This document shows, one piece after another, positions 1-25,258 of a stretch of 64,000 bases of DNA (the stretch's first letter is position 1; each line of letters opens with the position of its first letter). Below the pieces are notes generated by a model, which saw only the letters and a list, made by a program, of their open reading frames with translations, searched no databases and was not told the DNA's origin. The position numbers were made by a program, and so were the translations under genes. Source of the stretch: Verrucomicrobiales bacterium (GTDB lineage: Bacteria; Verrucomicrobiota; Verrucomicrobiia; Verrucomicrobiales; DEV007); NCBI GenBank assembly GCA_029213065.1, contig JARGPH010000008.1, forward strand, positions 62,001 to 126,000, read 5' to 3'.

Positions 1-3000
1 CGACCGAGGTTGAAGGTAAGGTCACTGGTCACAGCGCTGAAATCAGCAATGTTTCCGACGCCGGATGCGAAGAGGCGATCTCTTCCGTAGTTCTCAAGGA
101 ACTGGTAGGTATCGCCACCGCCCCCGCCGACGAGAAGATCTGAGCGTGCTCCGGAAACGATGAGGTCGGCTGCGGTGCCTCCGTAAATGGTGGTGTTGCC
201 CTGGCCGCCGTAGAGACTCGTCGTCGCATTGGCTGCACCTGTCAGGGTCGAGGTGCCGGTGCCTCCGCGGAGAATACTCCCGGCCGCGGCGCCTGCTCTG
301 AGATTCGAGTTGCCGGAGCCGCCGGTGAAATCCACGGTGGCGTAGAGAAGATCGGAGGCATCGATGACAGACTGTCCTCCACCTGCAAATCCGATCACTC
401 TGGTTATATTATCGAAGATGTCTGAGAAAAAGGTCTGACCCTGGAGAACGGCTCGAATTTGAACTTTCTCACCGCCGGAAGAGCCGGCGCCATGACTGAT
501 CAAGGTGAAGACTTCGTTGCGCGCCGTCGTATCACCGAAGAGACGGAGGTTCGCGAACTGTTCACCCATGTGGAGTGTCAGGGTGCCTCCATTGGCTGCC
601 CCGAGCTGGATCCCCGGTTTCTCCGCATAGAAGGTGACTTTGAACAGTTCGATGGAAAAGGTTTTCGCGAGAATCCTTTTCACGATTGGACCCACGAAAG
701 GAATCGGGATCGTGAGATCCACGTAAAAGGTGAGACCCACTGTTCCTGTCAGAGTGACATCGAAGAGGTTGCCCATCTTGCCGTCGGCACCGGGGAGGCT
801 CTTCAAAAAGTCGATTTGAGAACCTCGCAGTTTGCCGTAGCCGATCGCTGATGAATCTGAGCCGCTGATCTCCGCGCCGAGGAAACTGTTGCCGATGGTG
901 GTCCCTTTCGGAATCGTGACGTCATTCCAGTTGAAATCGAGGTCCAGATTGAAAAAGGCCTGAACACCGGCTTCGATGAGACCGAAGTTCAATGCCACAC
1001 CGACACTGAAGCCCACTGAAATTCCGAACGCCGGACTTGGGTTCCCTTTGAGATCGAGGGTGCTCCAGTAGAATCCCTGGGTGTCCCAACCGAACTTGAG
1101 GTGGGTGCGGATACTGAAGCTCGCTCCCACGGTGAGCTGAAGTGGAGGAAAGGCCGGCAGTGGAAAGCTTCTGCTGTAGGCGACGCCCAGTTCGATTTTG
1201 GGTAGCTCGAGGTAACTGAGGTTGGCTTCTTTACCGAGAAGAATTTTCTCAATATTTTCAATCTTCAGGTAATCGAGGCGAAAGCCGCCGCCTGAGATGT
1301 TGGCAATGGGGGTTCTACGGCCGCCGCGATCGTCGGAGCCGGCGATTCCCTGATTGGCCGAATCTTTGACCTTGTTGACAAACTTGGTTTTGAGACCGGT
1401 TCCTTCTGATTGCGCGAATCCTTTGTCGCGGAAGGTTTCAAACTTTTTGCTGAACTTGTTCGGGGTCGATACTTTGTCCGTGAATGCTTCGCGGAGACTT
1501 TTCGATGCCTTGCGGTCCTCGGTGGGTTCCTGAAGCGACAGGAAAGCCCGTTCGGCGCGATCGAGCTTTTTCTGGTAGGCATCGACGCGGCGGTTGATCA
1601 CATACTTCTGGATTCTCTCGCGCTCGAGTGTCAGCGGGCTCTTGGCACCATACTGAGTTTTGATTCCCACGGTTCGGGCGACGCCGCCAATGACTCGTGG
1701 TGTATTGATTCCGAGGAAACCATCATGGATGAGGTCGACGCGGGGTTTCGCCCAGTCCGGGGTGCCTTCAGACAATCCGACCCCTTCTCCGAGGGCACGA
1801 ATCGTGTCGTCAATGTTGGTCAGGGTTCTGACAAAAATGAGGAACTTGGGGCCTAAGAATTCACCGACGACAAAAGGCTCCGCCATCCACTCGGTTCCGG
1901 GAACCGGAGTGAGAAGAAAGTCGAGAACCGGGCGAATCGGGGCGATCCCTTCCGAGAACTTGATCAACATCTCGAAAATCGTTCCGCGGAGAAATTCCTC
2001 GGCGTCGACCGTGATATTGAGGAAATCGAAGACAGCGCCGTCAATCAGATCACGAAGAACGCGGAAATCCGGTTGGTCGGCGATTCTCTGCTGAGCTTCG
2101 TCTGCATTACCATTGGCGACCGCTTCTCTCGCGGCGTCATAGACAGCTTGTGTTACATAGGAAAGGCGGTCGGAGCCTCTGCCATAGCGGGCCTGAAAAT
2201 AGAACTCTGTCTGAATGTCAGGGATGCCGCCGTCTCCTCCAAACGAGTCTCCCGATTTGCCGCCTTCAATGAGCAGGGCGATATCGGTGTCACCATGGGT
2301 GTCGAAACTGATGATGCCGTATTTGAGATTGTTCGAGGCATCGATTGGAATATTGAATGTCGGATCAAGTCCGAGCGTATTCCGAATCTGCATGTCCGGA
2401 ATCGTCGTGCGCGTGTTGTCGTTGCCGCCGGATCCCGTATTGAGATAGAAGTCGTAGGTACTGTAGATGCCTGAGGCACCCTGATCGTCTGCAGAGGCAT
2501 CCGTGGGCCTTACCCCGCCGGGAACCGTCAGTGCGTCGGCAATCTGGACGTTGAGGAGGTGGAGGGTGCTCGTTCTTTCCCCCTGAGTAAAGGCCTGAAC
2601 TCCGGCAGTGTTGATATCACCGTCAAGAACCGCCTGGACTTCGATCGACATGACAGACTCATCAGCGCCCACTCCGTCATCGATCGGGTTGTAGAGGTAG
2701 AAGCCGTCGGTAAGGTCGACCCCGAAACCGAGGTGCAGCGTGAATGCGGTTCGGAGATTGACACCTCCGGTGGTGTCGACTGCGTCATAATTGGCATCCA
2801 GAGATTGAGTCTGAGTGTCGACTTCGAGACCCAACTCGTCCGGCAGGTAGATGCGGTTGATGTTCACCTCGGTCGCATCGGTGTCGAGCTCTTTGACGAG
2901 ATCGAGAGCGAATTGAAGGCTCACCGCGCTGGACGGGGTGACTTCAAATTCTTCGTTCGCAGGGGTCAGATCGTAATTGTTCGAGTCATTGGGATCCCAG

Positions 3001-6000
3001 ACCGTAGCCGACTCCGATGAGTCGAGTGTCTCGACACGGATTTGACTCCGCGAGGTCAGGTAACCTGCTCCCCCGGGGCCGAGCGCTTCATAGAGGGCAT
3101 CGAGAGTTGCATTGATTGGTTTGAGCTTATTGTTCCTCAGTTTGTCACGAAGACTGTTAGTGAAGTCGCTTCGCCAGCTTTCGATAAAGACGGTGTAGCT
3201 GGGGAGGTCGAGACCGAGAAGAGGGAGTTCGTTGCCGAGTGCCTGATCAATCGCGAACTGCAGATTGAAAAGAGAGAGGTCGAGTGCTTCTCCCATCAAA
3301 AATGGATCGCGGAGAACCTGAAGGACATCCACCGGCGGGATGTTCAGATAGAAGGGGTTCAGCTCGTCCTGTGGCAGATCGGGATTCGAGAAAAAGACAA
3401 CCGGAGCCGGAACGCCGGGCACGTTTGAAGGAACGTTGAGATCAAAAAATCGATCGAGGCCGGATCGACCGCCTTCGCTCACCACCCGTATATTGATGGG
3501 ATCAAAGGTCGGCTGGGTCGCCATGAAGTCGGGATCATTTGCCTGCTCGGGACTGAGCTGGGAGGTGTCTTTTGAGATGATCCTTTCGACGCCGTCTTCC
3601 CCCTGGACGACGATGACAACGGGGAGGAGAGCCTGTGCCTGACCGTTTGGTGTCACCGTGGCGACTTCGTCGGTCGCGAGGGTAGTGGTATTAAACTCGG
3701 AGTAGACTCGATTGAGCTGCGAGGTGAAAGAGATGATGCTGCCCGCCGAGATCGAGGACAGATTCGGGTTGTTCTGGATGAACGCGGTGCGGCCGTTGTC
3801 CCGTCCCAGTTGAGCGGTCACTCTCAGCTCGTTGAAATCGCTCACTTCATCAGCAAAGTCGACCCGCTCGAGAACCCACGAGTTGCCATTGGTGCCGACA
3901 GATCCCAGATCAATGACACGGTAGACGCCGTTTTGAAATTCGATGTTGGTGCCGAGAACTGAATCGAGGAGTTGATCCTTCACGAGGATGAGATCCCCGA
4001 CTGCGAGATCGGTGACGCCGTCGATACCGGCAACGGTGCGACCGTTCGCGAGGGTGCTCGTGACGTTGTTGAGGGACTCGTTTCCACGGGAGGTGAGGGT
4101 GGCCTGAAAGGCGGGGTTTCCGGCCTCTCCGCCCGGTGCGTATACCGCGTCGAGTGCACTCGTGGTTGCGACATCGACCGCATACGGCAGCACGAGATCG
4201 TGATTTAAATCGATCGACATCGTCGCCGGGTCGATCAGTTTGGCGAAGCTCTTCGTGTCGGATCCGGCGTTGCCGATCTGGACGGTTTGGAAGAAGTCCC
4301 GGTTCGCGTAATTTTCCCCTCCGGTGACTCTAACATAGAGACCATTGAGTTCGCTCGTGGAGTCGGCGGCGGTATCCCGCACGAGAGACCAGGCACTGCT
4401 CGCGTCGCCGGCGCTCACGACGCGATAGACGCCGTTTTGGGATTTTTCCGTTTCGTTTACGGTCCAGCTCCTATCCGCCGCATTGTAGGCATTGTCCTCC
4501 TGGTTGTTTACGAGGATGCGGTCTCCGGCACTCACCGCAACGCCGTCAATCGTAAGGGCTCCGTTACCCGATCCTACCAGCGTGCCGGTCGAGGCGGTGT
4601 AGGTTCCTCCGAGGTCGGCCGTTGTTGACGCTGCCACAGTAAGCATGACGGGCGGGACGTAACCGATCGTCAGCGCATTTTCATTGTAGAGCTTTGCGGT
4701 GTTGAATTCATCATTCACCTCCGCCTCGCCGGTTGCGTTGATCGCGACTTTCCCATCTGTGAGTCTGAAGCGGGCGTTCCCGACGGGAAGGTCCCCGGAG
4801 AGCTCGGCTCCTGCGAGGTTGAAGCTCGTGTCGACGGTGGTGGTGTCGTGAAGGATCGCGGTGGGCGCGATTTGACCGGTGTCGTCGACGATCTTGATTC
4901 CGAGGTCGAGATTCAGATCGGAGAGCACGTTGAGATCCACGCTCATCGGATTCGAGAGCGTGCCTGCCAGAGCGTCGAGACCGGCGAGGTAAGTCTTCAC
5001 GATAGCCGGATCACTGGAGCGGTTCCGGAGTTGCGCGAGGTCAATGAAAAGGGGGAGCGCCGTGGCGAATTTTGCAATGTAAGGCAAACTGATTTCGATG
5101 CTGGCCTCCGTGAGATTTGAGGTGAGGTCGTAGTCTGTGTCGAGACGGATTTCAACGTCAGCGAGATCCAGTTGGAGTGAGTCTGCGATGACCTGCTGAA
5201 GGCCCTGCAGGGTTGCCGGCGGGGCGTCGGCAAGCTGAGCGATCGCGGTTTCGAATTCGTATCCGAAATCGAACTCACCGACGAGGCTCTCTTTGATAAA
5301 AAGAAGGCTCGTCTCGTAGGGGTTGACGGCCGCGCCCGAGCCATCGGGATCAATCCGCATTTGATCGGAAATATATTCGGCGGAGCGCAGGAGACCCTGG
5401 AAAATATCGTCAAAGTTAAGCCGGGAAAGGTTCTCCATTCCCGCCGTGTTCGTATAAGTGATCTCAGCGACGGGGAGTGATGAAAAATCATTGATCGAGC
5501 TCGTTTCCGAGTCCCCTGTGAGCGCGTGTTCGATTGTGATCGTGGCTCCCGTGCCGAAGGCGAGCCCGTCAACGGTGCTTCCAGTGAAAGAGAGATCCTG
5601 CAGCTCAAGAGTAACGAAGGTTGCCGGATCAACGATGGTGGCGGAGACGGTCTCCATCGTATCTGATGAGACAAGCTCGTTCAGCTCGAAGAGGGAGAAG
5701 CGGGTGCGGGTATTGTCTCTGAGCAGGGTCGTGGAAGAGGCCTGCAGATTGAGGTCGCCGTCTGCGGCTGCAAATTCGGCAAAACCGAACATGCCGGTCG
5801 CAGTAACTGTTTCGTTAGTCACTGTAGCGGTGCCTTCGAGTCTGATATTGTCGAGATAGGCTTCGCCACCTCTCCAGCCCGCCCGCTGCTCTTCAACCTG
5901 GAAACCCAGTTGATCGACTGCGGCATTGTTGGCACCGGGGGCGGCCATGACCCGCATTGTGATGACTTCCGGGGTGCTTGTGCCAGCGAGGTCCAGTGAG

Positions 6001-9000
6001 CGAATCGCAAAGCCGTCGCCCTGTTCGTTCATAGCAGCTTTCACAAAGCTGGATAGTGAATAGGTGATCCCGTTGACGACGACGTCGGAGGCTGCGAGGG
6101 CGTTGTTCACATCGGCAATGAGGTGCCCGAGTGTGGCGCCGAGGGAGCCTGTGGGGATCGTCACCGCAGTGTAATCACTGCCATTGATGGAGAGGCGAAG
6201 GACAGCAGGGTTGAGGAGACGAAATGGATCGCTTCCTGTGAGTGAGCCTGACAGAGCCGTCACCGGAACGAAGCGCCCCGCCACATCGGTGCTTTTTTCG
6301 GGAATGCCCAGTTCGAGAGAGGCGGCGTTCGGGCTCGGGAGTCGATAGTCTGCGAAGACTTCCACCGACCAGTTCTCGCTGGCGTAGCTGCTGTCGTCGG
6401 GAAAAAGAGTCGAGTTGAGCCGGAAGCCGATTTTTCCCCCGGTGGCGTCGAAGGCTTCGACCTTGGTTCCGTCGTAGAGGGTGCTCAGTGCGGCACTCTG
6501 GTCGATTGCAAAATTGATGTCCTCAATGAGGTCCGCGAGAGAGGTGTTGTCCGCCGTCTCCGATGCGGCGAGATAGACCTGACCGACGTTTCCGTCGAAA
6601 AGGGTTACTTCGAAAATGGCATCCCGGCTCAGGGTGAAGTTGGTGGCGGCGTTGTCGGCGATGAACTCCGCGGCGACACTGGTGAAGTTCGCTTTGCCGG
6701 AGGGAAACCCGAGAATATCGACGGCGGCATTGACCGTCGTGACGGGGCTGGCCACTTCGGGGCGCACGAGCACCTGAAGGATTCTCGAGTCGGTTTCTGT
6801 CGTCACCGTCGTAAACGTAATTACCGGTGTGCCGGTATCGGCCTCGGTGGTCAGCTCGATCGTGATTTTATCTCTCAACGATGCATTGGCTCCGAGCGCA
6901 TCGACGAGTTGACTTACGAAATCAGCGGCCTCGATGTTTGTGGAGGCTTCGTCGACGGTGACGGTTAGGTCGTGTTCCACGCCGTCGTCGAGCAGGATTG
7001 TGAAAACCGCGTCGTTCTCGATTTTTCCATCCCAGTCATAAACGACAACAGGAATCCCCACTGAAAGCTCTTCAACTGAGCGGGTCAGCGGTTTGAGACT
7101 GAACTGAAAGTCAAAGGAGGAAGTCGTTTCTCTCTCGACCGTGACCCGGCTTTCGGTGACGAGGTTGCTGATGTGTCCGTAATCAGAGTCGAGGTCGACA
7201 GCAACGCGCTCGTCCACATCGGTGGTCGCGGCATCATCTTCGAGCGGCGGAGCAGTGTGGTCGAAGCCGACTGGAAAAGTGAATGTCAGGGCGTTGGTAT
7301 CCCATGAGGGGCTCACACCCGTATTGGCAAGATTGACCGGGGAATCTGCGATGCGCGCTGCGAATTCCTGCACCGAATCAAAATTGGGTGTGATCGCAAT
7401 GTCGCCACTGATAAAGCCGCGCGCCGCCGTTTCGGTAAATCCGAGGAGATCTCTGATCAAACCGGTGTTGGCGATCTCAAAAGCGTTGATCCGGCCGGCC
7501 TGACTTCCGGGGTTCCGGGCGAAAAATTGAATCGAAGCTTCGCCTGTGGAATCGCTGACCGCACCGCGAACATCGATCCCGGTTGCTTCGGAATCATTGA
7601 GGAGGCTCTTCTTCGTCAGGGTTGTTCCGGCGACGAGGTAGGCGGTATTTTCCATCGCATAGCGAAGATCATCCACATAGTCGTTGATCGTGGAGTTGGC
7701 AGCGTCCCCGAGGAGGTTGCCCGTCAAATTCCCCGGAAGGAACACGCGGTAAACCTCCGTGGTGTCCCCGGTGACAGTGACGTCGAATGAGGGGGAGGTC
7801 TGCTCTGTGGGCGAAAGGTTGAGCGCAGCGGCGGCGTTTCCGCCGAACTGGAGTGAATGGACATCCGCGCCCCCGTAGAACTGAAGGCCGACCGTTCCGT
7901 TTTGAGCGGTGAATGTGTCCACGTAGACACCGCTCGATTCTCCCGCATTGTAGATTCCCGCGGCCGAGAAAAGGTCGCGAAGCTTCGTTGCGAGCGTGTC
8001 GAGGTCCGAGTAGGCGAACGCGGGAATGGTGATCGAGACGGGAGTTTCCCCGTTAATAGTCACTGTAAGGGTTTTCGGAGTCGTCGAGAGATCGGTGAGA
8101 TTGACCGATGCGGTCGGTTCGAAAAGGATTCCGGTAGATTGGAGCTGAGCACTGTCAGTGATGCCCCCGCCAAACGCGGCAGACTGATCGTTGGCGAGAA
8201 CGAGTTGCTGCAGAACGTCGAACCCGAGATCGAGAATCCCGTCTCCTTTGGCCTGGAAGGCGGTGAGAACGAACTGGGTTTCGTCATTGTCTGCGAAAAT
8301 TTCAAGTCGCGGTGAGTTAGTGTCGCGGACTCTCGCCTCGACTCCGTTCGGGAGGGCGGCGGAAAGTTCGGCCGCGAGTTCTTCGAGAGTGGTTCGTGTC
8401 GGATCGGCCCCGACGGTGACCTGAACCCAGGCGGCGCCATTGATTGAGATGAGAAATTCAGTGGAACCGGAGAAGTCGATCGGATTCTGGACAAGAGAAC
8501 CGGCAGGGCCGCGCCAGGTGGAAGGGGCGTTGCGGGCGGAGAGGACCTGCTCAACATTCTGGAGCTGGGCGAGAAAGACTTCCTGAAAGGCCCGGCCAAA
8601 GGCATACGCGTCACCGGAGGCGATATCGAGGAAGGGGATATTGTCCCCGTAGATGCCGGAAGCCTGAAGCGCGGAAGCCCAACCCGAGACTCCACCGGCC
8701 ATGTTGAGAATATCCTGCGAGGTGAGACGGGAGAAGGCGGCGAGGGTGCCGTCAGTTGTCGCCATCGGCGCGCTCTCGTCAAAAAGATTCTGATCGGTGA
8801 AAGTCACGGTGCCGGTGACTCCGTCAATTCCTCCGATATGCGTTGTCGCTGCGGCATTGTTCGCGACCCCGACCTGCATGATCACACTGGCGCTGTTTTG
8901 ATCGCCGATCGTGGGGGTGCTGAAGTCGTGAGCGCTCGACCAGGTGTTGGAGGCTTGAAAGCCCTTGAGCTCAGCGAGGTCAAGGCGTTCGTCGCTGTTG

Positions 9001-9890
9001 ACATCGTTGAAAGAAAACTCTCCCGTGACATCGAGGATGAACTGACTCCCCGCGAGGGCATAGGCCCCGGCGTCACCGCCGGTTTCGCGCATCCCGAGCA
9101 GCCCGACCTGAACACCGAATTCAGTGAGTTGGTCTGTCGTTGAGGTGTGCAGAGCGTTGGCACTGATACTGAGACCTTCGTCCCCGAACAGATCAATCCA
9201 GAATTTGTTATCTGTCAGGCCGTCTCTCTTTGCGTCCGTGTCCGCTCCGGTCTGAATCGAGGTGAGATCCGCCAGAATCCGGAAGCTGAGATCACGACTC
9301 GAATCGACGTTCACGGTGGTGCCGTCTTCAATGCGCAAATTGAGTTCCTCTTCGGCAGAGCCGAGATGAATATCGGTCGCCTCATCGATCTCCCCGTCGG
9401 CGATGTTGATTTTCAGGTTGAGCCCATAGTCGGACGATTCATCAACCACGGTTCCGGAGAGGCCGAAATCGCTCAGGGCGGTTTCGATACTTAGCGCGAG
9501 TTTCTGGGAGTCGGGCGTATCTCCGTTCAGGGTGTCCTGAATGCCCTGATGGCCTGCCGCAAATTTGAAGAAATCGCCGATATCCGTTCCGATGTAGTCA
9601 TCGAGTGTCTTGTCGAGGAGGGGGACCACTGTATCGGCAAACTTCCCGTTGAACTCGGTGTTCAGTGAGTCGCCCAGCAACCCCATCTGATTAAAGGTTT
9701 CCGAAAGTTGAGCGCTGAGTTTTTGCTGGACCGAGTTCGTTCCCGTCGGGGGAGTCGGATCGGCAGGATCGTAAAGATTCGCAGTGAGAAGGAGTCGCTG
9801 CTCCATCTGCTCCACCTCGAAGTTCGGTTTATCGGGGCGCTTTTTAGAGAGCCGGGTCGTAGACTTCTTCGAGGATTGGTTCCGGCTCAT
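1..9890 (-). CDS. Giant exported repeat protein with LEPR-XLL-like N-terminal tag (C-terminus beyond window)
   Basis: The minus-strand frame is open from an ATG at 9890 to the left edge, about 3,296 codons; I checked frame continuity at several anchor points. There is no ordinary signal peptide. The basic N-terminus is followed at residues 29-37 by MEQRLLLTA, close to the LEPR-XLL tag of giant planctomycete and verrucomicrobial proteins. Residues about 470-1300 hold repeated modules (a TVTING- or SING-like strand, a TLxxL helix, then LGF) that resemble flagellar hook IN motifs. Residues about 1751-1874 and 1905-2039 are two copies of a phage tail-fibre-like domain (TIDGV, AGDRILV, NGVYRV). 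Near the left edge, residues about 3182-3277 are glycine/asparagine-rich RTX-like repeats ending in GGGGGDTYQF. It is probably a surface adhesin or matrix protein. It lies 303 bases downstream of the accessory secA, which suggests that the upstream genes export it (inference). Confidence 0.88.
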   Translation of the reverse strand, partial: MSRNQSSKKSTTRLSKKRPDKPNFEVEQMEQRLLLTANLYDPADPTPPTGTNSVQQKLSAQLSETFNQMGLLGDSLNTEFNGKFADTVVPLLDKTLDDYIGTDIGDFFKFAAGHQGIQDTLNGDTPDSQKLALSIETALSDFGLSGTVVDESSDYGLNLKINIADGEIDEATDIHLGSAEEELNLRIEDGTTVNVDSSRDLSFRILADLTSIQTGADTDAKRDGLTDNKFWIDLFGDEGLSISANALHTSTTDQLTEFGVQVGLLGMRETGGDAGAYALAGSQFILDVTGEFSFNDVNSDERLDLAELKGFQASNTWSSAHDFSTPTIGDQNSASVIMQVGVANNAAATTHIGGIDGVTGTVTFTDQNLFDESAPMATTDGTLAAFSRLTSQDILNMAGGVSGWASALQASGIYGDNIPFLDIASGDAYAFGRAFQEVFLAQLQNVEQVLSARNAPSTWRGPAGSLVQNPIDFSGSTEFLISINGAAWVQVTVGADPTRTTLEELAAELSAALPNGVEARVRDTNSPRLEIFADNDETQFVLTAFQAKGDGILDLGFDVLQQLVLANDQSAAFGGGITDSAQLQSTGILFEPTASVNLTDLSTTPKTLTVTINGETPVSITIPAFAYSDLDTLATKLRDLFSAAGIYNAGESSGVYVDTFTAQNGTVGLQFYGGADVHSLQFGGNAAAALNLSPTEQTSPSFDVTVTGDTTEVYRVFLPGNLTGNLLGDAANSTINDYVDDLRYAMENTAYLVAGTTLTKKSLLNDSEATGIDVRGAVSDSTGEASIQFFARNPGSQAGRINAFEIANTGLIRDLLGFTETAARGFISGDIAITPNFDSVQEFAARIADSPVNLANTGVSPSWDTNALTFTFPVGFDHTAPPLEDDAATTDVDERVAVDLDSDYGHISNLVTESRVTVERETTSSFDFQFSLKPLTRSVEELSVGIPVVVYDWDGKIENDAVFTILLDDGVEHDLTVTVDEASTNIEAADFVSQLVDALGANASLRDKITIELTTEADTGTPVITFTTVTTETDSRILQVLVRPEVASPVTTVNAAVDILGFPSGKANFTSVAAEFIADNAATNFTLSRDAIFEVTLFDGNVGQVYLAASETADNTSLADLIEDINFAIDQSAALSTLYDGTKVEAFDATGGKIGFRLNSTLFPDDSSYASENWSVEVFADYRLPSPNAASLELGIPEKSTDVAGRFVPVTALSGSLTGSDPFRLLNPAVLRLSINGSDYTAVTIPTGSLGATLGHLIADVNNALAASDVVVNGITYSLSSFVKAAMNEQGDGFAIRSLDLAGTSTPEVITMRVMAAPGANNAAVDQLGFQVEEQRAGWRGGEAYLDNIRLEGTATVTNETVTATGMFGFAEFAAADGDLNLQASSTTLLRDNTRTRFSLFELNELVSSDTMETVSATIVDPATFVTLELQDLSFTGSTVDGLAFGTGATITIEHALTGDSETSSINDFSSLPVAEITYTNTAGMENLSRLNFDDIFQGLLRSAEYISDQMRIDPDGSGAAVNPYETSLLFIKESLVGEFDFGYEFETAIAQLADAPPATLQGLQQVIADSLQLDLADVEIRLDTDYDLTSNLTEASIEISLPYIAKFATALPLFIDLAQLRNRSSDPAIVKTYLAGLDALAGTLSNPMSVDLNVLSDLNLDLGIKIVDDTGQIAPTAILHDTTTVDTSFNLAGAELSGDLPVGNARFRLTDGKVAINATGEAEVNDEFNTAKLYNENALTIGYVPPVMLTVAASTTADLGGTYTASTGTLVGSGNGALTIDGVAVSAGDRILVNNQEDNAYNAADRSWTVNETEKSQNGVYRVVSAGDASSAWSLVRDTAADSTSELNGLYVRVTGGENYANRDFFQTVQIGNAGSDTKSFAKLIDPATMSIDLNHDLVLPYAVDVATTSALDAVYAPGGEAGNPAFQATLTSRGNESLNNVTSTLANGRTVAGIDGVTDLAVGDLILVKDQLLDSVLGTNIEFQNGVYRVIDLGSVGTNGNSWVLERVDFADEVSDFNELRVTAQLGRDNGRTAFIQNNPNLSSISAGSIISFTSQLNRVYSEFNTTTLATDEVATVTPNGQAQALLPVVIVVQGEDGVERIISKDTSQLSPEQANDPDFMATQPTFDPINIRVVSEGGRSGLDRFFDLNVPSNVPGVPAPVVFFSNPDLPQDELNPFYLNIPPVDVLQVLRDPFLMGEALDLSLFNLQFAIDQALGNELPLLGLDLPSYTVFIESWRSDFTNSLRDKLRNNKLKPINATLDALYEALGPGGAGYLTSRSQIRVETLDSSESATVWDPNDSNNYDLTPANEEFEVTPSSAVSLQFALDLVKELDTDATEVNINRIYLPDELGLEVDTQTQSLDANYDAVDTTGGVNLRTAFTLHLGFGVDLTDGFYLYNPIDDGVGADESVMSIEVQAVLDGDINTAGVQAFTQGERTSTLHLLNVQIADALTVPGGVRPTDASADDQGASGIYSTYDFYLNTGSGGNDNTRTTIPDMQIRNTLGLDPTFNIPIDASNNLKYGIISFDTHGDTDIALLIEGGKSGDSFGGDGGIPDIQTEFYFQARYGRGSDRLSYVTQAVYDAAREAVANGNADEAQQRIADQPDFRVLRDLIDGAVFDFLNITVDAEEFLRGTIFEMLIKFSEGIAPIRPVLDFLLTPVPGTEWMAEPFVVGEFLGPKFLIFVRTLTNIDDTIRALGEGVGLSEGTPDWAKPRVDLIHDGFLGINTPRVIGGVARTVGIKTQYGAKSPLTLERERIQKYVINRRVDAYQKKLDRAERAFLSLQEPTEDRKASKSLREAFTDKVSTPNKFSKKFETFRDKGFAQSEGTGLKTKFVNKVKDSANQGIAGSDDRGGRRTPIANISGGGFRLDYLKIENIEKILLGKEANLSYLELPKIELGVAYSRSFPLPAFPPLQLTVGASFSIRTHLKFGWDTQGFYWSTLDLKGNPSPAFGISVGFSVGVALNFGLIEAGVQAFFNLDLDFNWNDVTIPKGTTIGNSFLGAEISGSDSSAIGYGKLRGSQIDFLKSLPGADGKMGNLFDVTLTGTVGLTFYVDLTIPIPFVGPIVKRILAKTFSIELFKVTFYAEKPGIQLGAANGGTLTLHMGEQFANLRLFGDTTARNEVFTLISHGAGSSGGEKVQIRAVLQGQTFFSDIFDNITRVIGFAGGGQSVIDASDLLYATVDFTGGSGNSNLRAGAAAGSILRGGTGTSTLTGAANATTSLYGGQGNTTIYGGTAADLIVSGARSDLLVGGGGGDTYQFLENYGRDRLFASGVGNIADFSAVTSDLTFNLG
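1751..1752. other. Placeholder within the giant CDS: no separate gene in 1-9890
   Basis: Many open frames on both strands between 1 and 9890 are shadows of the single long minus-strand reading frame. I see no independent gene inside it; this entry records that for the reader. Confidence 0.6.
3775..4640 (-). repeat. Two tail-fibre-like domains in tandem within the giant protein
   Basis: Two stretches of the giant protein (4640-4270 and 4176-3775) share the same pattern: a TIDGV or GIDGV strand, then AGDRILVNNQ or VGDLILVKDQ, then NGVYRV, then a serine-tryptophan-x-leucine segment and a D/E-x-N-x-L segment. This pattern is common in phage and prophage tail-fibre proteins. The two copies are divergent, so this is an old duplication rather than a recent DNA repeat. 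Confidence 0.6.
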
Positions 9891-10193: not shown

Positions 10194-12185
10194 TCAGCGC
10201 GCCGATGCCCGGGTGAAAGCGAGGTGCTCCTCCATCCAGGTGTCCATTTTTAACACGGCTTCACGCTGCTTTTCCCCCATTTTCTCAGCTGTCTTCTGCG
10301 CTTTTCGGCAGGCGTTCAGAGCCAGCCCGGTCGACCCGGGAAGCTTCGAGGCGATTCGTTGCTGGAGCTGTTTCCGTTCGCGGGGACGGAGAAAGCGGAT
10401 CAGTAATTCGTCGTCAGGGGCGATGTAGTAGCGGGCGCTACCCGGTTCGCCCTGCCTCGCTGATCTTCCAATGAGCTGCCGGTCGATACGGGGGGAGAGG
10501 TTGTGCTCGACGACGATGACGTGGAGTCCCCCGAGTGATAGAACCTCTTCAGAAAGTTTAATGTCCGTTCCGCGGCCGGCCATATTGGTGGCGATACAGA
10601 TGCTGCCCCGTTTTCCCGCTTCGGAAACGATTGCGGCTTCCTCTTTATGACGCACAGCGTTGAGAACGGTGTGAGGCAGTTGCAGTTCGGTAAGTTGTCT
10701 GGAGAGGGCTTCGCTCGCTTCAACGGTGCGGGTGCCGACGAGGACGGGGCGGCCGGTTTGATGCATCGCATCGATCTCCCCGACGACGGCTTCATATTTA
10801 GCTGCCTCGTTGGGATAAACTTTTACCTTTTCGATCTTACGGAGAACGGGCCGGTGGGTGGGGATGCAAACAACCGCGAGTCGATACATTCTCCAGAGTT
10901 CCGCTGAAGATTCACTCGCCGTTCCCGAGACACCTGCAATCGAATGAAACATCCGGAAGAATCGCTGGAAGCTCATGCTGGCGAGGGTTTCGGTCGGATC
11001 TGTCACGGGGATGTTTTCCTTGGTCTCGATCGTTTGATGGAGGCCCTGTTTCCAGGTTCGACCGGGGAGAATCCGGCCGGTGAACTCATCGACGATTTCG
11101 ACTTTCGATTCATCGGTGATCACGTAGTGCTTGTCTTTGATGAAAAAATGCTCTGCGACGAGGGATTGGCGGACCAGTTCGTTGCGACGGTCGTAGGATC
11201 TCCAGATCGCGGGAAAGCGATGGGAATGACGTCCTATTGCGGCAATCCCCTGGTGGGTGAGCGTGATTTCGCTGTGTTTGTAATCAATCGTGTAGTCGAT
11301 TCCCGTTTCAAGTGCCGCTCCGAGATCCCGCGCGATCGAGCAGCATTGAGCGAAGGAATTCCCGGGCATCGTCTGGCTGATGATGAGGGGCGTGACCGCT
11401 TCGTCGATGAGAATGTTATCCGCTTCATCGATGATCACGGTGTGGATGCCCCGCATCACGAGCGCCTCACCACTTGATTTTCCGCCGCTGGAGAGATGTT
11501 GAATGAGCCGGCCTTGCGGGGTTTGCTCGCTGCCAAGTTTCAGTTTGTCACGGAGAAAGTCGGCGAGGATTTCCTGACTCGTTGTGTAGACGACCGCGCT
11601 CTGATGTTGCGAGATTCGCTCCGGCGGTTTCATACTTCCGGTGACGAAGCCGGCGCGGATGCCGCACTGCGCAAAGTATTCGGAAAGTGTCTCGGCATCG
11701 CGTTGCGCGAGGTAGTCGTTGGCGGTGATGACATGACACGGATTTCCAGTCCACCCGCTGAGGGTCGCCGCGAGCCCGATCGTGAGCGTTTTTCCCTCCC
11801 CGGTCGCCATCTCCGCGAAGAGGCTTTCGTGAATTGCCATCGCTCCCGCAATCTGTTCGCGGTAGGGGGTCAGGCCCATCGACTCCTGCGCGACCCGGCT
11901 GACCGCGGCAAAGGCCTCTCTCGTCAGCAGTGATGAGGTTTCGCCTCTGCGGAAGCGGCGGTGAAGATCGTCGAGTTTTTCCTGAAAGGCATCTTCGCTC
12001 AGAGGGGCGATCTTCTGTTCAAGCCATTGGAGCGACGCCTCCGCTTCCCTGAGAAGACGCCGTAGCGTTGACGACCTTCGCCTGAACGCTCCCGAGACCC
12101 AGTCGGCCCCGCGATCAATTCCCTTTGCCACCTTGCGCGGGGGACGGGGAGCGGCGGTGTAAAAGCGCTGGGTGGGGGTGATCAT
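10194..12185 (-). CDS. Short accessory SecA-like preprotein translocase ATPase
   Basis: A SecA-type motor ATPase of 663 residues. Visible motifs are the Q-like LTPYREQ (105-111), Walker A ATGEGKT (127-133), Walker B/DEAD IIDEADNILIDEA (251-263), SGTAS, ATNMAGRGTDIKL and the arginine-finger region QLIGRSARQGEPGS. Housekeeping SecA is 800-900 residues or more. This protein stops soon after the second nucleotide-binding fold, so it lacks much of the helical scaffold and wing and has no C-terminal zinc (SecB-binding) tail. I chose the ATG at 12185 because it overlaps the upstream stop as ATGA; a GTG at 12230 would add 15 residues. It is likely to be a second, substrate-specific SecA that works with the two HlyD-like genes and the giant protein beside it. 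SecA homology is certain; the dedicated role is inferred. Confidence 0.9.
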   Translation of the reverse strand: MITPTQRFYTAAPRPPRKVAKGIDRGADWVSGAFRRRSSTLRRLLREAEASLQWLEQKIAPLSEDAFQEKLDDLHRRFRRGETSSLLTREAFAAVSRVAQESMGLTPYREQIAGAMAIHESLFAEMATGEGKTLTIGLAATLSGWTGNPCHVITANDYLAQRDAETLSEYFAQCGIRAGFVTGSMKPPERISQHQSAVVYTTSQEILADFLRDKLKLGSEQTPQGRLIQHLSSGGKSSGEALVMRGIHTVIIDEADNILIDEAVTPLIISQTMPGNSFAQCCSIARDLGAALETGIDYTIDYKHSEITLTHQGIAAIGRHSHRFPAIWRSYDRRNELVRQSLVAEHFFIKDKHYVITDESKVEIVDEFTGRILPGRTWKQGLHQTIETKENIPVTDPTETLASMSFQRFFRMFHSIAGVSGTASESSAELWRMYRLAVVCIPTHRPVLRKIEKVKVYPNEAAKYEAVVGEIDAMHQTGRPVLVGTRTVEASEALSRQLTELQLPHTVLNAVRHKEEAAIVSEAGKRGSICIATNMAGRGTDIKLSEEVLSLGGLHVIVVEHNLSPRIDRQLIGRSARQGEPGSARYYIAPDDELLIRFLRPRERKQLQQRIASKLPGSTGLALNACRKAQKTAEKMGEKQREAVLKMDTWMEEHLAFTRASAR

Positions 12186-14344
12186 GAATCTTCGTTTTGC
12201 TGGAAGAGTTGTCTGATGGTTCGACTCCACTGTGACTTGAGCGGTTCCGGGGGCAGTGTGAAACGGATTTGCCCGGTCAACGCTCCCGGAGGAGATACTT
12301 CCGATGGGAAGGGGGCGGTTTCAGAGCGAACGAGGTAAAATTCCTCCACCGCTGTGAGTCCGGAGCTGTCGCCCTGTTTGGTTTTGATTTCACCGCCAGC
12401 GAGCCAGCCGAGCGCAGCGGTGGGCAGTTTCTGCTGACCGCCGGGGACGATCGTCTGGTTGGTGACGGCGAGAGCGATGGCGGGACTCTGAAGGAGGCGC
12501 ACTTCCGAGGATTGAATCGTTTCATCGAAGAGGCTGCCGGCCTGCTTCTGGGGCACCGCGGAGACGAAAACCATTTCGGAAAAATCGACGATTCTTCCCA
12601 GTTCGGTTCCGCGCGGCGCCCAGGTGCCTCTCAGTTCTCTCGAACGGGGGGATGTCCAGATTCCGTCGATCCCGGCGCGCACTAACAAATCCATCTTTTG
12701 GCGGTTCAACTCTTCGAGAACGAGCCGGCCTGCTTTGGCCTGTTCGACGAGAGGTCCGATAATGGACACAAACTGATTCTGGCGGGCCTCCTCGATCTGA
12801 GTAGCGATTTGTTCCAGTCGCGAGGTGGCGCTTTTGATGTCGAGATCGAGTTCGGGGTTTGAGAGTCGCAGGATCGGATCTCCCGCTTTCACCGGGGTGG
12901 TGGTCTCGACGAAAATCTCATCGACGACGCCGGCGCTCTTTGAGTAGACCACCGATTCAATTGAGGGTTTGAAAACGCCGGAGGCGCGGAAGCTGCGGGG
13001 AAGGGGCACGAAGCCGATCCCCCCGACGAGCAGCAGTATGATCAGGCCGGTGACCGCGAAAGCCCGGGTTCGGTGGCGCTCGAGCCGATCGCTCGTAAAA
13101 AGGTATTTCACGAGTTTGCCGATCGGCATGAGAAAGTAGAGGAAGACGCAGAAGGCGGCGATGGCGACGCCAAGCCCGAGAAAACCCTGGGCCACATTGT
13201 AGGTGATGAATGCGAGCAGTAAGACCCGGTAGATAAAGGCGGCAATGCCGTAGGTCGTGAGCCAGAAGGCTTCATTCCTGTCGCTGGCAGGAGAGAACGA
13301 TTTTTTGACTCCGAAGAGAAGCTTTTCTGAAAGGTGTTTCAGTTGGCGGGTCGACCGTTGATAGAGATTGGGGAGGTCAAAGAGATCGCTGAAGATGTAG
13401 TAGCCGTCGAAGCGGAGGAGCGGGTTCGCATTGAAAAGCACTGTCGAAACCGAGGCGATGAAGATCACGTTGTAGGTGAGTCGTTTCACAAACGGGTCCG
13501 GCGTTTGTATCCAGACAAAGAGTGCGATGGATGCGACGAGGAATTCCGCCCCCATGCCCGCCGAACTGACTGCAATGCGCTGCCAGCGATGACGAAATCC
13601 CCAGCTCGATGTCGCGTCAACGTAGGGCAGGGGTGTCAGGAGCATGAGCATGACGCCGGTTTTCCGTACTTCGCCACCGAAGTGTTTGCACATGATGCCG
13701 TGGCCGAACTCATGAATCAGCTTGATGAAGACCGTGCAGAGATAGAGGTAGAAGAGGTTCTTCGGCGCGAGTACGCCGGAGCTCTGGTCGGCAAGTTCAT
13801 CGAGGTGACCGATTGAAAACCAGATCGCTGTCGCCACCAGTCCGAGCCAGAGGATAAACCCGACGGGACTGAGGATCGGCCGGAAGATGGGGCGAAGAAG
13901 AGTTAGGAGTCGGTCAGGATCGAAAAGAGGGATGTTGAGAAAGAGAAAGTTGACGGCCTGCCCCCGTGCTTTTCGTCCTTTGATCTTTCTCTCGCGTTCA
14001 AACAGTTGCCTGCTGTCAGGGGCGAGGTTTGACTGGAGCAGGTTGGAGCGATGAAGTTGTGAGAGCACCTGGATGACTTCGTCCTGGCCGGGGGCGTCGT
14101 CCGGCATCAGGGCGAGGCATTCTTTCCAGACTTCGTCGACCGTCAGGTCGCCTTTCAGCCTGCCGACGAAGGCGTAAGCGGCCGGCGAGATTCGAAAGAA
14201 TTCGTTGTTGAGAGGATCTCGAAGAAGGTACCAGAGCTGCCCGCGAAACATTTGCCTGACCACTTCCACGGTGGGATTGAGGCGCACGCGTTCAGGCGCG
14301 ACACGATGCCACGAATCACTGAACATTTGCTGCCGTTCCGCCAT
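12182..14344 (-). CDS. M50-metalloprotease-like membrane protein fused to a HlyD-type adaptor, PqqD-like N-terminus
   Basis: A 720-residue protein with three parts. Residues about 25-110 look like a PqqD-type winged-helix domain, as found in peptide-modification and peptide-export systems. The central part is polytopic and carries the zinc-protease motif HEFGH (211-215) and the third-ligand segment NPLLRFDGYY (307-316), so the active site looks complete. The C-terminal third after a membrane span near 440 has HlyD lipoyl/beta-barrel features (SAGVVDEIFV, VKAGDPILRL, a coiled coil). The family is annotated as putative peptide zinc metalloprotease or periplasmic adaptor. It starts 4 bases after the upstream gene and overlaps secA by 4 bases, so the three are one operon. 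It may process or guide the giant protein during export (inference). Confidence 0.85.
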   Translation of the reverse strand: MAERQQMFSDSWHRVAPERVRLNPTVEVVRQMFRGQLWYLLRDPLNNEFFRISPAAYAFVGRLKGDLTVDEVWKECLALMPDDAPGQDEVIQVLSQLHRSNLLQSNLAPDSRQLFERERKIKGRKARGQAVNFLFLNIPLFDPDRLLTLLRPIFRPILSPVGFILWLGLVATAIWFSIGHLDELADQSSGVLAPKNLFYLYLCTVFIKLIHEFGHGIMCKHFGGEVRKTGVMLMLLTPLPYVDATSSWGFRHRWQRIAVSSAGMGAEFLVASIALFVWIQTPDPFVKRLTYNVIFIASVSTVLFNANPLLRFDGYYIFSDLFDLPNLYQRSTRQLKHLSEKLLFGVKKSFSPASDRNEAFWLTTYGIAAFIYRVLLLAFITYNVAQGFLGLGVAIAAFCVFLYFLMPIGKLVKYLFTSDRLERHRTRAFAVTGLIILLLVGGIGFVPLPRSFRASGVFKPSIESVVYSKSAGVVDEIFVETTTPVKAGDPILRLSNPELDLDIKSATSRLEQIATQIEEARQNQFVSIIGPLVEQAKAGRLVLEELNRQKMDLLVRAGIDGIWTSPRSRELRGTWAPRGTELGRIVDFSEMVFVSAVPQKQAGSLFDETIQSSEVRLLQSPAIALAVTNQTIVPGGQQKLPTAALGWLAGGEIKTKQGDSSGLTAVEEFYLVRSETAPFPSEVSPPGALTGQIRFTLPPEPLKSQWSRTIRQLFQQNEDS

Positions 14345-14348
14345 AGTC

Positions 14349-16202
14349 CTAAAGCCAAAATCTCATCCGCAGATAATCGATCGCGCGGTGGGTGATAATC
14401 CAGAGAGGTGAGCGCGTTCCGCAGTGAATCCGCGCGGAACCGGTCATGCCGGGACGCCACCAATCCGGCGCCTCACCGCTGAAGCGGGTCCGGGCGATGA
14501 GGAGGGTTCCTTTTTCCTCCGGGATCGCGAGTGGTTCAATTTCCGTCACCTCGATGGGAAAGTGTTCTTCGGGACGGCTTTCAAAAGCGACTTCACCCTC
14601 CGAGCCGATCGCGACACGAGTGGCATCAGCTTCAGGGACACGGAGTTCTGCAAACATCCCTTTCAGCTGACTCAATTTCAGCAATGCCTCACCGCGGGTG
14701 ACAGGGGAGCCGATCCTGTCTTCCATCTCACCTTCGAGAACAACGCCGTCCTCGGGGGCCTTCACTGAAGCCATTTCGAGATTATACTGCACTTTCTGCA
14801 GTGCTGATTTTGTCTCTTCCGCCTGAGCTATCGCAATGTGCATTTCCGCAGGGGTTGCCTCGGCCCGGGCGAGCTGCGCTTCCGAGACGTAACGCTGGAT
14901 CGTCGCAGACAACTCCGCCCGGTTCAGATCAAGCTCCGCCGTATCCATTGTCACGAGAACCTGATCCTTCTTTACGGCATCACCGGCCCTGACAGAGACA
15001 CTTTCAATGTACCCGTCAAAGGGAGCGGGGAGGTGAAACACCTGTGCGGGCTGCAGAATGAAGGAGGCCTTCACCTTGTAGGGCCAGGGATAAAGAACGA
15101 GGAAAGCGAGGAGAGCGGTCGTGGCGAGCGCTCCCACTTTAATCCAGGTGTGTTCAAATCCGATCACTTTCCCAAGGCCCTTTCGCAGAGCGCCTGCCCA
15201 GCGCGCGCCAAACCACCGGTCACGCTCGTAAAGATCCACGAGGCGGCGAACACAGAGATCCGAGGTCAGGCGCATCGCTTCAATGTCGGCCTGTCCGAAT
15301 GGCTGGACCCGCTCCACCGTTACCGCCGCAAGTGGCGATGAATCGAGTCGCAGGGGGACGGAGGCAACATGAGCGACCCCGGCCTTGCGGGCGTACCGTT
15401 CGTGATCCCGTTCGATCGCGGCTCCGGTCGCCGTCCCCGGCCAGACAATTTCATCGTCCTGCTCGATGCTTTCCTCCATCGCGGCCTCAAGCAGGCGGGA
15501 GAGTTCCATCTTGCGATTGATTTTCCCGGTATGATTGGTCGCTTTCAGCTTGATGTAGTTTCCACAAAGCCATCCCAATGAAACGCGGTCCGCTCCGTAG
15601 CGGGAGGCCAGCTCATTGCAGAGCACCATTGCCGCAGCGAGGAAGCGGGTTTCCTCGTTGACGAGAATGCCCACTGTCAATGCGGTTACGAGGGGTGGCT
15701 CCGGCTCGTCGTTGGTGCCTGTGTCAGGTGCACTTCCCGAGAGTGGATTGGCCCCGTAGATCAGAGGGGTATCCATCATCAGCTTCTCGATCCGTTGAGA
15801 GGGCTGAAAGAAATCCTCTGATCCGTAACGGATGAAAGTGGCGACACAGGTCGTTTTTTCGTCCTCGATCCGCAGCGGCAGTGCCGCACTTCGGATGCCC
15901 TCATTGCCGGCGGTGCATTGCAGCCGGGGTTCGGATTCAGAGGTAGTCGCCGCCAGTTCGGTGAGTTCTTTCCTCAAGGCGGAAAGGCGTTGCTTCGTTT
16001 CCTCTGAATCGGGCCAGACTGCCACCGGTGACCACTGGGCTTCGCCGGTCTCTGACTCGAGTTTCACGAGGATCATTCCGCTGGCGGCCTCCAGCTGGAG
16101 AGAAAAGACGCGGAGCATTTCCACCCAGAAAGCTGCGTCGCGACCTTCGAACGACCAGAGCTTTTCAATGGCAAGTTGCGATTTAGTTTTCGGAAGCGGC
16201 AT
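14349..16202 (-). CDS. HlyD-family periplasmic adaptor with N-terminal GAF-like domains
   Basis: A 617-residue protein. The N-terminal half (about 15-330) reads as two GAF-like alpha/beta domains and is probably cytoplasmic. A single membrane span lies at about 355-375 (VGALATTALLAFLVLYPWPY). After it come a lipoyl half-motif (FDGYIESVSVRAGDAVKKDQ, near 395), an alpha-helical hairpin, the second lipoyl half (VKAPEDGVVLEG) and an RND/HlyD beta-barrel. I chose the ATG at 16202. An in-frame ATG at 16280 would add 26 residues that look like translated leader and would come within 12 bases of the divergent gene. It is the first gene of the export operon. A GAF sensor on an adaptor is unusual and could tie export to a cytoplasmic signal (inference). 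Confidence 0.82.
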   Translation of the reverse strand: MPLPKTKSQLAIEKLWSFEGRDAAFWVEMLRVFSLQLEAASGMILVKLESETGEAQWSPVAVWPDSEETKQRLSALRKELTELAATTSESEPRLQCTAGNEGIRSAALPLRIEDEKTTCVATFIRYGSEDFFQPSQRIEKLMMDTPLIYGANPLSGSAPDTGTNDEPEPPLVTALTVGILVNEETRFLAAAMVLCNELASRYGADRVSLGWLCGNYIKLKATNHTGKINRKMELSRLLEAAMEESIEQDDEIVWPGTATGAAIERDHERYARKAGVAHVASVPLRLDSSPLAAVTVERVQPFGQADIEAMRLTSDLCVRRLVDLYERDRWFGARWAGALRKGLGKVIGFEHTWIKVGALATTALLAFLVLYPWPYKVKASFILQPAQVFHLPAPFDGYIESVSVRAGDAVKKDQVLVTMDTAELDLNRAELSATIQRYVSEAQLARAEATPAEMHIAIAQAEETKSALQKVQYNLEMASVKAPEDGVVLEGEMEDRIGSPVTRGEALLKLSQLKGMFAELRVPEADATRVAIGSEGEVAFESRPEEHFPIEVTEIEPLAIPEEKGTLLIARTRFSGEAPDWWRPGMTGSARIHCGTRSPLWIITHRAIDYLRMRFWL

Positions 16203-16291
16203 GAACGTGTTAAACGTTTGATTCGGATTAAGGTTACTAGCTCTTGATATCAGAAAAGTCTTAATTAAATCGCATTTCATCTGAGAATTGA
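16203..16291. promoter_or_regulatory. Divergent promoter region
   Basis: About 89 AT-rich bases lie between the start of the export operon (minus strand) and the FGE-fold gene (plus strand), including TTAATTAAAT near 16260. They must hold promoters for both directions. I cannot assign clear -35 and -10 boxes. Confidence 0.4.
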
Positions 16292-17116
16292 ATGAGAATC
16301 AAGTACCCATTGCGCGCCCACATAAAGACGGTCCTTATTTTGCTGCTTATTTCAGGTCTCTCCGGCGGTGGCGGTTTCGCGCAGACGCCAACGGAAGAGA
16401 CTGAGCCGGTTTTCGAGAATTCGCTGAAAATGGCCTTTGTTGAAGTGCCGGAAACGAAGGTTCTTTTTTCCATTTGGGAAACGCGCGTGCAGGATTTTCG
16501 TCGGTTCGTGAACGATACGGGGAGCCGCTGGAAACCTGCCGGATTTGCTCAAGGGCAGACTCATCCTGCGACGATGGTGTCATGGGAGGATGCGACCCGA
16601 TTCTGTCGTTGGCTCACAAAGCGGGAGGCGGCGGCGGGCACGCTTCCGGAGGGGTGCCGCTACCGGCTTCCAACCTCTGCCGAATGGAGTCTCGCGGTGG
16701 GGCTTAAAAAGCCGGATGCCAATGATACCATGGCAATGGTGAACGGTCCTTCTCAGACGGAGTTTCCGTGGGAGGACACTTGGCCCCCGCTCGAGGATGC
16801 AGGAAACTATCATCCGGAGCTCAATTGTGATTCTTTTTCCTACACCTCACCGGTGGGCTCCTTCAAGCCGAACCGCCTGGGAATCTACGACCTCGGGGGG
16901 AATGTCTGGGAATGGTGTTCTGATTCGTTCAAAAACTCGATCGACTTCCGCGTTCTCCGCGGTGCCTCCTGGAGGATGCGCTCACCGGGGGATCTTCTCA
17001 GTTCTCTTGAGATCGGAAATGTCGGGCACATTCAGCTGAACACTTACGGGTTTCGGGTTGTGCTTGAATTGGCAGAGGGAACCGTGGTCAAGGATCTCGC
17101 TGTGGTCGATCATTGA
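16292..17116 (+). CDS. Secreted FGE-sulfatase-fold protein lacking the catalytic cysteines
   Basis: A 274-residue protein with a signal peptide (1-30) and a formylglycine-generating-enzyme fold. Visible hallmarks are YRLPTSAEW (124-132), LGIYDLGGNVWEW (196-208) and RVLRGASW (220-227) followed by GFRVV (253-257). Genuine FGE has a cysteine pair shortly after the RGGSW motif; here that stretch (RMRSPGDLLSSLE) has none. It is therefore probably a structural or binding member of the family rather than a sulfatase activator. It is also short at the N-terminal side of the fold. It is divergent from the export operon and close to a sulfatase-rich region, but no operon link to the sulfatases is visible. 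Confidence 0.85.
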   Translation: MRIKYPLRAHIKTVLILLLISGLSGGGGFAQTPTEETEPVFENSLKMAFVEVPETKVLFSIWETRVQDFRRFVNDTGSRWKPAGFAQGQTHPATMVSWEDATRFCRWLTKREAAAGTLPEGCRYRLPTSAEWSLAVGLKKPDANDTMAMVNGPSQTEFPWEDTWPPLEDAGNYHPELNCDSFSYTSPVGSFKPNRLGIYDLGGNVWEWCSDSFKNSIDFRVLRGASWRMRSPGDLLSSLEIGNVGHIQLNTYGFRVVLELAEGTVVKDLAVVDH

Positions 17117-17350: not shown

Positions 17351-18217
17351 ATGCCAAATCCATGGACCGGGGTGGGAAACCCTTATACTCGACTGGAAGT
17401 TCTCGAACGCCTTCGCGATACCCTTGCAAAAGGGGAGCCGATCATTGCTGCCGGCGCGGGAACCGGTATCAGTGCCAAGTTTATCGAAAAGGGCGGAGCC
17501 GATCTGATCATTATCTACAATTCAGGCCGCTACCGCATGATGGGCCACGGATCGATTGCCGGCATGATGGGCTACGGCGATGCGAATGCCGTTGCGATGG
17601 AAATCGGCGAGTATGAAGTGCTCCCCGTTGTGAAAGAAATTCCTGTGATCTGCGGAGTGCACTGCACCGATCCCCGCCGCCGGATGTGGCATTGGCTCCA
17701 GCAGGTGAAGGCGATGGGCTTTTCCGGAATGAACAATTTCCCGACCCACTCCATCATCGATGGTGATTTCCGCAAGCAGTTGGAAGAGACCGGAATGGGC
17801 ACTGATAAAGAGGTCGAGACCGTCGCGCTTTCCCGCAAGATGGATATTTTCTCTATCGTTTATGTGGCTTCCCCTGAAGAGGCCAAAGCGATGGCCGAGG
17901 CGGGGGCGGACGTCATCATTGCGCATGTCGGTTGCACCGTGGGCGGTTCCATCGGCGTGACCAATGCTGCGATGTCGCTCGACGATGCCGCGGTGGCCAC
18001 TCAGGCGATTATTGATGCGGGTAATACGGTGAGGAAAGATGTCATTTATCTTTCCCATGGCGGACCGATTGCAACCCCGGCGGATGCGGCATTCATCAAT
18101 GAGAAAACGGATGCGGTTGGTTTCGTTGGTGCCTCCAGTCTTGAGCGTATGGCGGTGGAGGAATCGCTCACGAATCTGACCCGTGAGTTCAAATCGATTC
18201 CCCTGAACCGTTCTTAA
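17351..18217 (+). CDS. TIM-barrel signal-transduction / PEP-hydrolase-family protein (Tm-1 C-terminal-like)
   Basis: A 288-residue cytoplasmic protein of the PEP-hydrolase-like TIM-barrel family (PF09370). Recognisable segments are GEPIIAAGAGTGISAKFIEKGGADLIIIYNSGRYRM near the N-terminus, GYGDANAVAMEIG, PVICGVHCTDPRR, and ADVIIAHVGCTVGGSIG. This family forms the C-terminal half of the tomato virus-resistance protein Tm-1 and also occurs as a separate bacterial protein. The next gene, 12 bases downstream, encodes the other half, so the two probably act as a complex. The bacterial reaction is not established. Confidence 0.9.
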   Translation: MPNPWTGVGNPYTRLEVLERLRDTLAKGEPIIAAGAGTGISAKFIEKGGADLIIIYNSGRYRMMGHGSIAGMMGYGDANAVAMEIGEYEVLPVVKEIPVICGVHCTDPRRRMWHWLQQVKAMGFSGMNNFPTHSIIDGDFRKQLEETGMGTDKEVETVALSRKMDIFSIVYVASPEEAKAMAEAGADVIIAHVGCTVGGSIGVTNAAMSLDDAAVATQAIIDAGNTVRKDVIYLSHGGPIATPADAAFINEKTDAVGFVGASSLERMAVEESLTNLTREFKSIPLNRS

Positions 18218-18229
18218 TATTGATTTGTT

Positions 18230-25183: not shown

Positions 25184-25258
25184 GGCGGGGGGAGGAGGAG
25201 AGTCCTCATGAAGAAGAGACGGTGAGACGCGATTGCGCAAGCCGTAGTGCATTTCCAT

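Follow-up and report, generated by a model that had tools for sequence, protein, structure and literature searches.

A PqqD/RRE-like, M50-protease and HlyD fusion protein accompanies LEPR-tagged giant proteins and is probably a tag-recognising part of a secretion machine

The closest described relative of the locus analysed here is the secondary SecA_DEAD module, which Kamneva, Poudel and Ward described in 2015 as related to type I secretion systems (T1SS), without a substrate (PMC4452313). It comprises the same truncated SecA, the same combinations of Peptidase_M50 with HlyD and of GAF with HlyD, and sometimes an OEP gene, it occurs in the same phyla, and a secretion role was proposed for it. 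Among its carriers is Methylorubrum extorquens AM1, with the operon META1p2402-2399 (PMC4452313). As in our analysis, no ABC transporter was found in the module (PMC4452313). The text of that study contains no PqqD or RRE domain, no LEPR, leader or substrate, and does not treat a sister clade lacking the extra SecA. With type I secretion (HlyB-HlyD-TolC) the module shares the HlyD-type adaptor and TolC, but it differs in the lack of an ABC transporter and in the signal, which would be N-terminal instead of the usual C-terminal.

RREs such as PqqD and TbiB1 are winged helices, whose strict definition in a 2025 survey is a bbb-aaa topology, and the characterised recognition motif FxLD is bound in a cleft between helix 3 and strand 3 (PMC12710340). 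Neither a fusion to M50 and HlyD nor a use in secretion is mentioned in this survey, and our searches of the open-access literature for RREs with M50 or HlyD and for daptide proteases returned nothing useful. The LEPR-XLL domain (NCBIfam NF012209, LEPR-8K), the tag of giant proteins, is known as a sequence model only; the mentions that we found in the open-access literature are two genome or transcript lists, neither of which links it to any machinery.

Here, we pair two orphans, i.e. the LEPR-XLL tag of some of the largest bacterial proteins and the secondary-SecA/M50/HlyD module of 2015. As far as searched, the RRE-like N-terminus of the M50-HlyD protein, the LEPR giants that go with this protein, and the clade-specific tags found even within one genome are new. 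The search covered open-access papers and returned no link between LEPR and the module, no RRE-like domain in it and no dialects; it does not establish priority.

Gene order and domain architecture of the locus

The window, i.e. the whole stretch of 64,000 nucleotides that was analysed, comes from a Verrucomicrobiales bacterium. The features needed here are the following:

14349..16280, minus strand: GAF + HlyD adaptor protein, 643 aa, 4 nt before the reader
12182..14344, minus strand: PqqD/RRE-like + M50 + HlyD protein, called the reader, 720 aa, ATG at 14344, stop at 12182
14030..14287, minus strand: RRE/PqqD-like winged-helix domain, reader residues 20-105 (profile, AlphaFold, Foldseek)
minus strand: predicted strands of this domain, reader residues 27-33, 36-43 and 48-52 (AlphaFold model)
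minus strand: predicted helices of this domain, reader residues 54-60, 69-79 and 87-99 (AlphaFold model)
13283..13738, minus strand: Peptidase_M50 core, reader residues 203-354 (Pfam PF02163)
13700..13714, minus strand: HEFGH zinc/catalytic motif, reader residues 211-215
13403..13432, minus strand: NANPLLRFDG with the zinc-binding Asp, reader residues 305-314
12245..13006, minus strand: HlyD/MacA-like periplasmic adaptor, about reader residues 447-700
10194..12230, minus strand: secondary SecA without full C-terminal part, 678 aa from GTG
3..9890, minus strand: giant protein, N-terminal 3296 of 5480 aa, extending past the left end of the window (L004)
9762..9821, minus strand: LEPR-like tag of the giant, NFEVEQMEQRLLLTANLYD, residues 24-43
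L004:7391-9355: TolC-family gene, 3' of the giant, just beyond the window

The order of transcription is GAF-HlyD, reader, truncated SecA and giant protein. The likelier ATG start of SecA overlaps the reader stop as ATGA (12182-12185), and 303 nt lie between SecA and the giant. A sequence-only reading had placed a protein with PqqD-like, M50-protease and HlyD parts at 12182-14344 and had called its HEFGH and DG motifs intact. We confirm the coordinates, as those of a 720-aa minus-strand ORF, as well as the three-part architecture and both motifs.

The central part of the reader matches PF02163 at 1.1e-6 (28.6 bits, cut-off 27.2), and the HExxH and NxxPxxxxDG motifs of M50 proteases lie in membrane helices. 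The C-terminal 270 residues are HlyD-type, weakly in Pfam (HlyD_3, 3.6e-4, just below cut-off) and clearly in NCBIfam (TIGR01730, 1.5e-8) and in structure. Indeed, a Foldseek search with the AlphaFold model of the reader (pLDDT 90.2) retrieved MacA/MexA adaptors at 1.8e-11, with the barrel-sandwich and alpha-hairpin of the HlyD/MFP adaptors recognisable by comparison with MacA; a profile search hit EmrA at 3e-9. The 678-aa SecA shows no Pfam match to SecA_SW. As a SecA without intact wing/scaffold that adjoins M50-HlyD and GAF-HlyD genes, it belongs to the secondary SecA_DEAD module. In the window neighbourhood and its flanks, the module contains a HlyD-type adaptor and TolC and no ABC transporter.

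Is this arrangement specific to the window? Our comparison set of 80 reader loci from GTDB genomes spans Verrucomicrobiota, Planctomycetota, Nitrospirota, Desulfobacterota, Magnetococcales, beta- and gammaproteobacteria, Elusimicrobia, Fibrobacter and others. The reader is thus widespread, which rules out a locus-specific protein. Of 71 loci that could be tested, 63 have a GAF-HlyD gene immediately upstream of the reader; for a truncated SecA immediately downstream, the count is 62 of 68. Giant ORFs located after SecA carry the tag, and LEPR giants are found directly behind SecA in several phyla. One group of readers (clade C, see below) has a different cluster, consisting of OEP, HlyD, GAF-HlyD, reader and giant, in genomes with canonical SecA only. 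It follows that the extra SecA cannot be a general reader of the tag. Nor can the earlier idea of SecA as a substitute for the ABC ATPase apply to every clade.

Three further genes were looked at in this context. The genome of the window encodes a second truncated SecA far from any reader (G000:C2:271846-273657, 39% identity), which may serve a clade-B reader on contig C80 that has no SecA beside it. A 259-aa ORF after TolC (L004:6593-7372) was rejected as a component, since the ORFs called in the 80 loci contained no homologue. A third match in the same genome (contig C16, E 1e-4) was set aside as well, as it sits in an ordinary MacA/ABC operon.

The N-terminal domain of the reader

Taken alone, the window reader gives a weak signal in its N-terminus. 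Against Pfam PqqD (gathering score 23.4), the full-length protein scores 12.7 bits (E 0.17), and residues 1-115 reach 16.7 bits (PF05402, E 0.0096), still below gathering score. Its relatives give a clearer picture: PqqD is the dominant Pfam family for the N-terminus in 11 of 14 orthologues, and it is matched by 52 of 72 wider homologues from many phyla, at best with 2.1e-9 and without a competing family. The PqqD/RRE similarity on which the sequence-only reading had staked its proposal is therefore present. Searched as a profile against PDB sequences, the 14 orthologous N-termini retrieved no PqqD and one chance match only. With hhalign, the domain aligned at Prob 1.7 (P-value 0.03) to four stray PqqD-like proteins, an uninformative result, as these four align poorly among themselves.

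In the AlphaFold model, the domain has a bbb-aaa topology, with pLDDT about 90 across most of its length. The fourth-ranked Foldseek match is the RRE TbiB1 with bound leader peptide (5v1u; E 0.049, prob 0.97, TM 0.60-0.64 on target), which suggests likeness of fold rather than close kinship. Other winged helices, e.g. NO66 and GdmN, match the fold too. Strand 3 and helix 3 are conserved above the rest of the domain (p 0.026). Overall, the N-terminus appears to be RRE-like, which is new as far as the open-access literature searched. Reader and RREs (PqqD, TbiB1; PMC12710340) share the bbb-aaa winged helix, the PqqD-type sequence and the fusion to a processing enzyme, and the FxLE of the tags described below is similar to the RRE motif FxLD. 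They differ in the presumed client, which is here a giant of thousands of residues and not a small peptide.

The RRE-like fold is preceded by reader residues 8-16 (FSESWHRV, window 14297-14323), the part of the N-terminal region that is best conserved in clade A.

Co-occurrence and covariation of tag and reader

The N-terminus of the giant consists of a basic stretch followed by NFEVEQMEQRLLLTANLYD, a variant of the LEPR-XLL domain. Against the LEPR-8K model (cut-off 17), this tag scores 12.9 bits in one scan and, in another, 15 bits or 17.9 together with its neighbours, values that lie around the cut-off. LEPR-tagged proteins can be as long as about 20,000 aa. By hydropathy, a crude measure, tagged N-termini lack a typical Sec signal peptide: the median of their maximum 12-residue hydropathy is 1.4, compared to 2.35-2.5 for two exported yardsticks.

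We counted tag and reader in 241 genomes of the window's phylum, counting LEPR above cut-off in ORFs of 1000 aa or more, and in 299 genomes of Pseudomonadota, with LEPR accepted at E up to 0.002. In the window's phylum, 14 of 15 genomes with a reader orthologue have a LEPR giant, compared to 2 of 226 others (p 1e-19), and these two possess a reader paralogue. Thus, all 16 genomes with LEPR giants have a reader, and none of the 184 reader-less genomes has a LEPR giant. In Pseudomonadota, LEPR is found in 37 of 73 reader genomes and in 0 of 226 reader-less ones (p 3e-27); both p values are from Fisher tests, which take genomes as independent although they are phylogenetically correlated. In both samples together, none of 410 reader-less genomes has LEPR. 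Other samplings gave LEPR in 38 of 50 reader genomes, while the remaining 12 had no match above cut-off. The zero cells, together with the dialect pattern within single genomes, are stronger arguments than the Fisher p values. Since a reader was found in every sampled genome with LEPR-tagged giants, it is probably a tag-recognising, perhaps also a cutting, part of a secretion machine.

The converse does not hold. Many readers of a further clade, D, occur in genomes without a LEPR protein, so that LEPR cannot be the sole substrate. The role of the domain is a general one, with homologues in many phyla, some without any LEPR protein. The protein belongs to a multi-gene export module, a point absent from the sequence-only reading. 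Clade D (L023-L026, L028-L036) has the same PqqD-M50-HlyD architecture, and nearly all its genomes lack LEPR above cut-off; in the two that were checked (G187 and G190), the extra SecA is absent.

In a tree of 35 readers, clades A, B and C are each monophyletic with strong support. Clade A, which includes the window reader, spans two phyla. We found that the tags differ with the clade of the reader. Tags of clade A follow the pattern F-x-[LIV]-E-x-[LM]-E-x-R-x-LLS[AG]: in 19 of 20 a hydrophobic-x-hydrophobic-[ED] element occupies positions -5..-2 (with F in 13) and is followed by LExRxLLS[AG]. Clade B tags read LFAEA or similar, then LEPRVL[FY]SA, and clade C tags lack the acidic residue at -2 and read LEPR[IVL]LLDAA or similar. 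With three tag readings (G300, G393, G218) assigned by hand, the upstream element is present in 19 of 20 tags of clade A versus 1 of 21 of clades B and C (p 2e-9), and D at tag position 7 in 12 of 12 tags of clade C versus 0 of 29 elsewhere (p 1e-10). Like the co-occurrence, these dialect counts carry phylogenetic correlation.

The covariation is also seen within single genomes. The genome of the window has two readers, and, matching these, an A-dialect giant at this locus and the B dialect in seven other giants. Two genomes combine A and C readers, and there the tags that lie 4-7 kb from the C reader show the C dialect. Of the clade-A-linked tags in the same set, most fit the A pattern and a few do so loosely; one of them (G510) is mixed and carries the D of the C dialect.

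The sequence-only reading had suggested that the PqqD-like N-terminus could read the LEPR-like tag of the giant. Far from being confined to this locus, the link between protein and tag is borne out by co-occurrence, by gene order and by the dialects of the clades. We infer that it would be the PqqD-like domain itself that binds, and M50 that may cut, as the same reading had suggested.

Proposed role and alternative explanations

We consider it fairly likely, and the best explanation, that the reader sits in the inner membrane and recognises the substrate for a T1SS-like machine that exports LEPR giants. The RRE-like domain would lie on the cytosolic side and bind the tag of the nascent giant as an RRE binds its leader peptide, the F-x-[LIV]-E element probably forming an additional strand alongside strand 3 and helix 3. 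Once bound, the chain would reach the M50 core in the membrane, and cleavage would most likely occur within or just after the short R-x-LLSA stretch; we guess this site because the stretch is hydrophobic. The HlyD part of the reader, its GAF-HlyD partner and TolC could form a conduit through periplasm and outer membrane, in an orientation and transport direction that we assume by analogy with HlyD. The truncated SecA may supply ATP-driven pushing in clades A and B, and clades without it would have to use canonical SecA or another energy source. For the more specific picture we see an even chance: a RiPP-type leader reader built into a secretion machine, in which RRE-M50-HlyD acts as gatekeeper, tag protease and base of the conduit, and in which at least three dialects correspond to three reader clades that occur in several phyla and of which two employ truncated SecA as a dedicated motor. 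If this is true, leader recognition known from ribosomal peptide antibiotics would also serve protein secretion, and for many giant surface proteins of Verrucomicrobiota, Planctomycetota and Proteobacteria a short tag would predict how they are exported.

The tag could instead be read by the extra SecA or by canonical Sec, with the PqqD-like domain serving as a structural winged helix that docks SecA or GAF-HlyD. Clades A and B, both with extra SecA, share the acidic residue at tag position -2 that is missing in clade C. Clade and extra SecA are therefore confounded for A and B, which means that SecA could account for part of the dialect signal, and could read the upstream part of the tag in place of the RRE-like domain. 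The fold matches to NO66 and GdmN point in the same direction; however, RRE-like folds have been reported for some JmjC proteins, the NO66-type JmjC fusions, as well (PMC12710340). As clade C has LEPR giants and reader in one operon without an extra SecA, and as the RRE cleft (strand 3, helix 3) is conserved above the rest of the domain, we regard this explanation as unlikely. The M50 part might also act as pore or scaffold without proteolysis, in line with the suggestion of Kamneva et al. that it replaces the ABC transporter pore; the module has no ABC transporter, and the M50 part is predicted to cross the membrane (PMC4452313). In a pure scaffold, the catalytic residues would be expected to disappear in places, but HExxH is kept in 78 of 78 loci with the region covered and the zinc-binding Asp in 80 of 80 (DG being in places DA or DS). 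We thus think a role without proteolysis rather improbable; pore and protease roles are not mutually exclusive.

S2P enzymes typically act in signalling, and in regulated intramembrane proteolysis GAF-HlyD would sense a signal and M50 would cut a regulator, with the linkage to giants reflecting shared ecology or mobile clusters. Kamneva et al. indeed took the GAF domain as regulatory (PMC4452313). Against this, the fused HlyD and the adjacent TolC argue for export and the clade-specific dialects for direct contact, which makes regulated proteolysis very unlikely. The locus would be a RiPP system if the reader were an intramembrane protease of the daptide or epipeptide type, cleaving the leader from a small peptide. 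Its best NCBIfam match is indeed the daptide protease model (NF041824, 7e-53), aligned over reader residues 21 to 409 and thereby taking in N-terminal domain and M50, and YydH/LiaK matches at 1.7e-8. The 180 bits of the former, however, stay far under the equivalog cut-off of 300, and the reader is fused to HlyD and coupled to SecA and TolC genes. To our knowledge, daptide systems have no place for an extra HlyD, TolC, a truncated SecA or a giant tagged ORF, and we give a RiPP system hardly any credence. Our preferred reading thus stays with the reader as the tag-reading component of an export machine.

The plus strand of the window holds further genes of possible interest. A 2443-aa frame (25257-32588) combines a 3-keto-disaccharide hydrolase, DUF7133, HEAT repeats, cytochrome c and two sulfatase domains, and is either a highly unusual fusion or an artefact of assembly or frame. 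An FGE-sulfatase (sulfatase-modifying-factor-like) gene and two ORFs that look sulfatase-like by eye lie near this fused sulfatase ORF (16292-17116, 20046-21425 and 23660-25183), and the area is possibly a region for the degradation of sulfated polysaccharides. A PEP_hydrolase-like and a UPF0261 gene are neighbours at 17351-19426.
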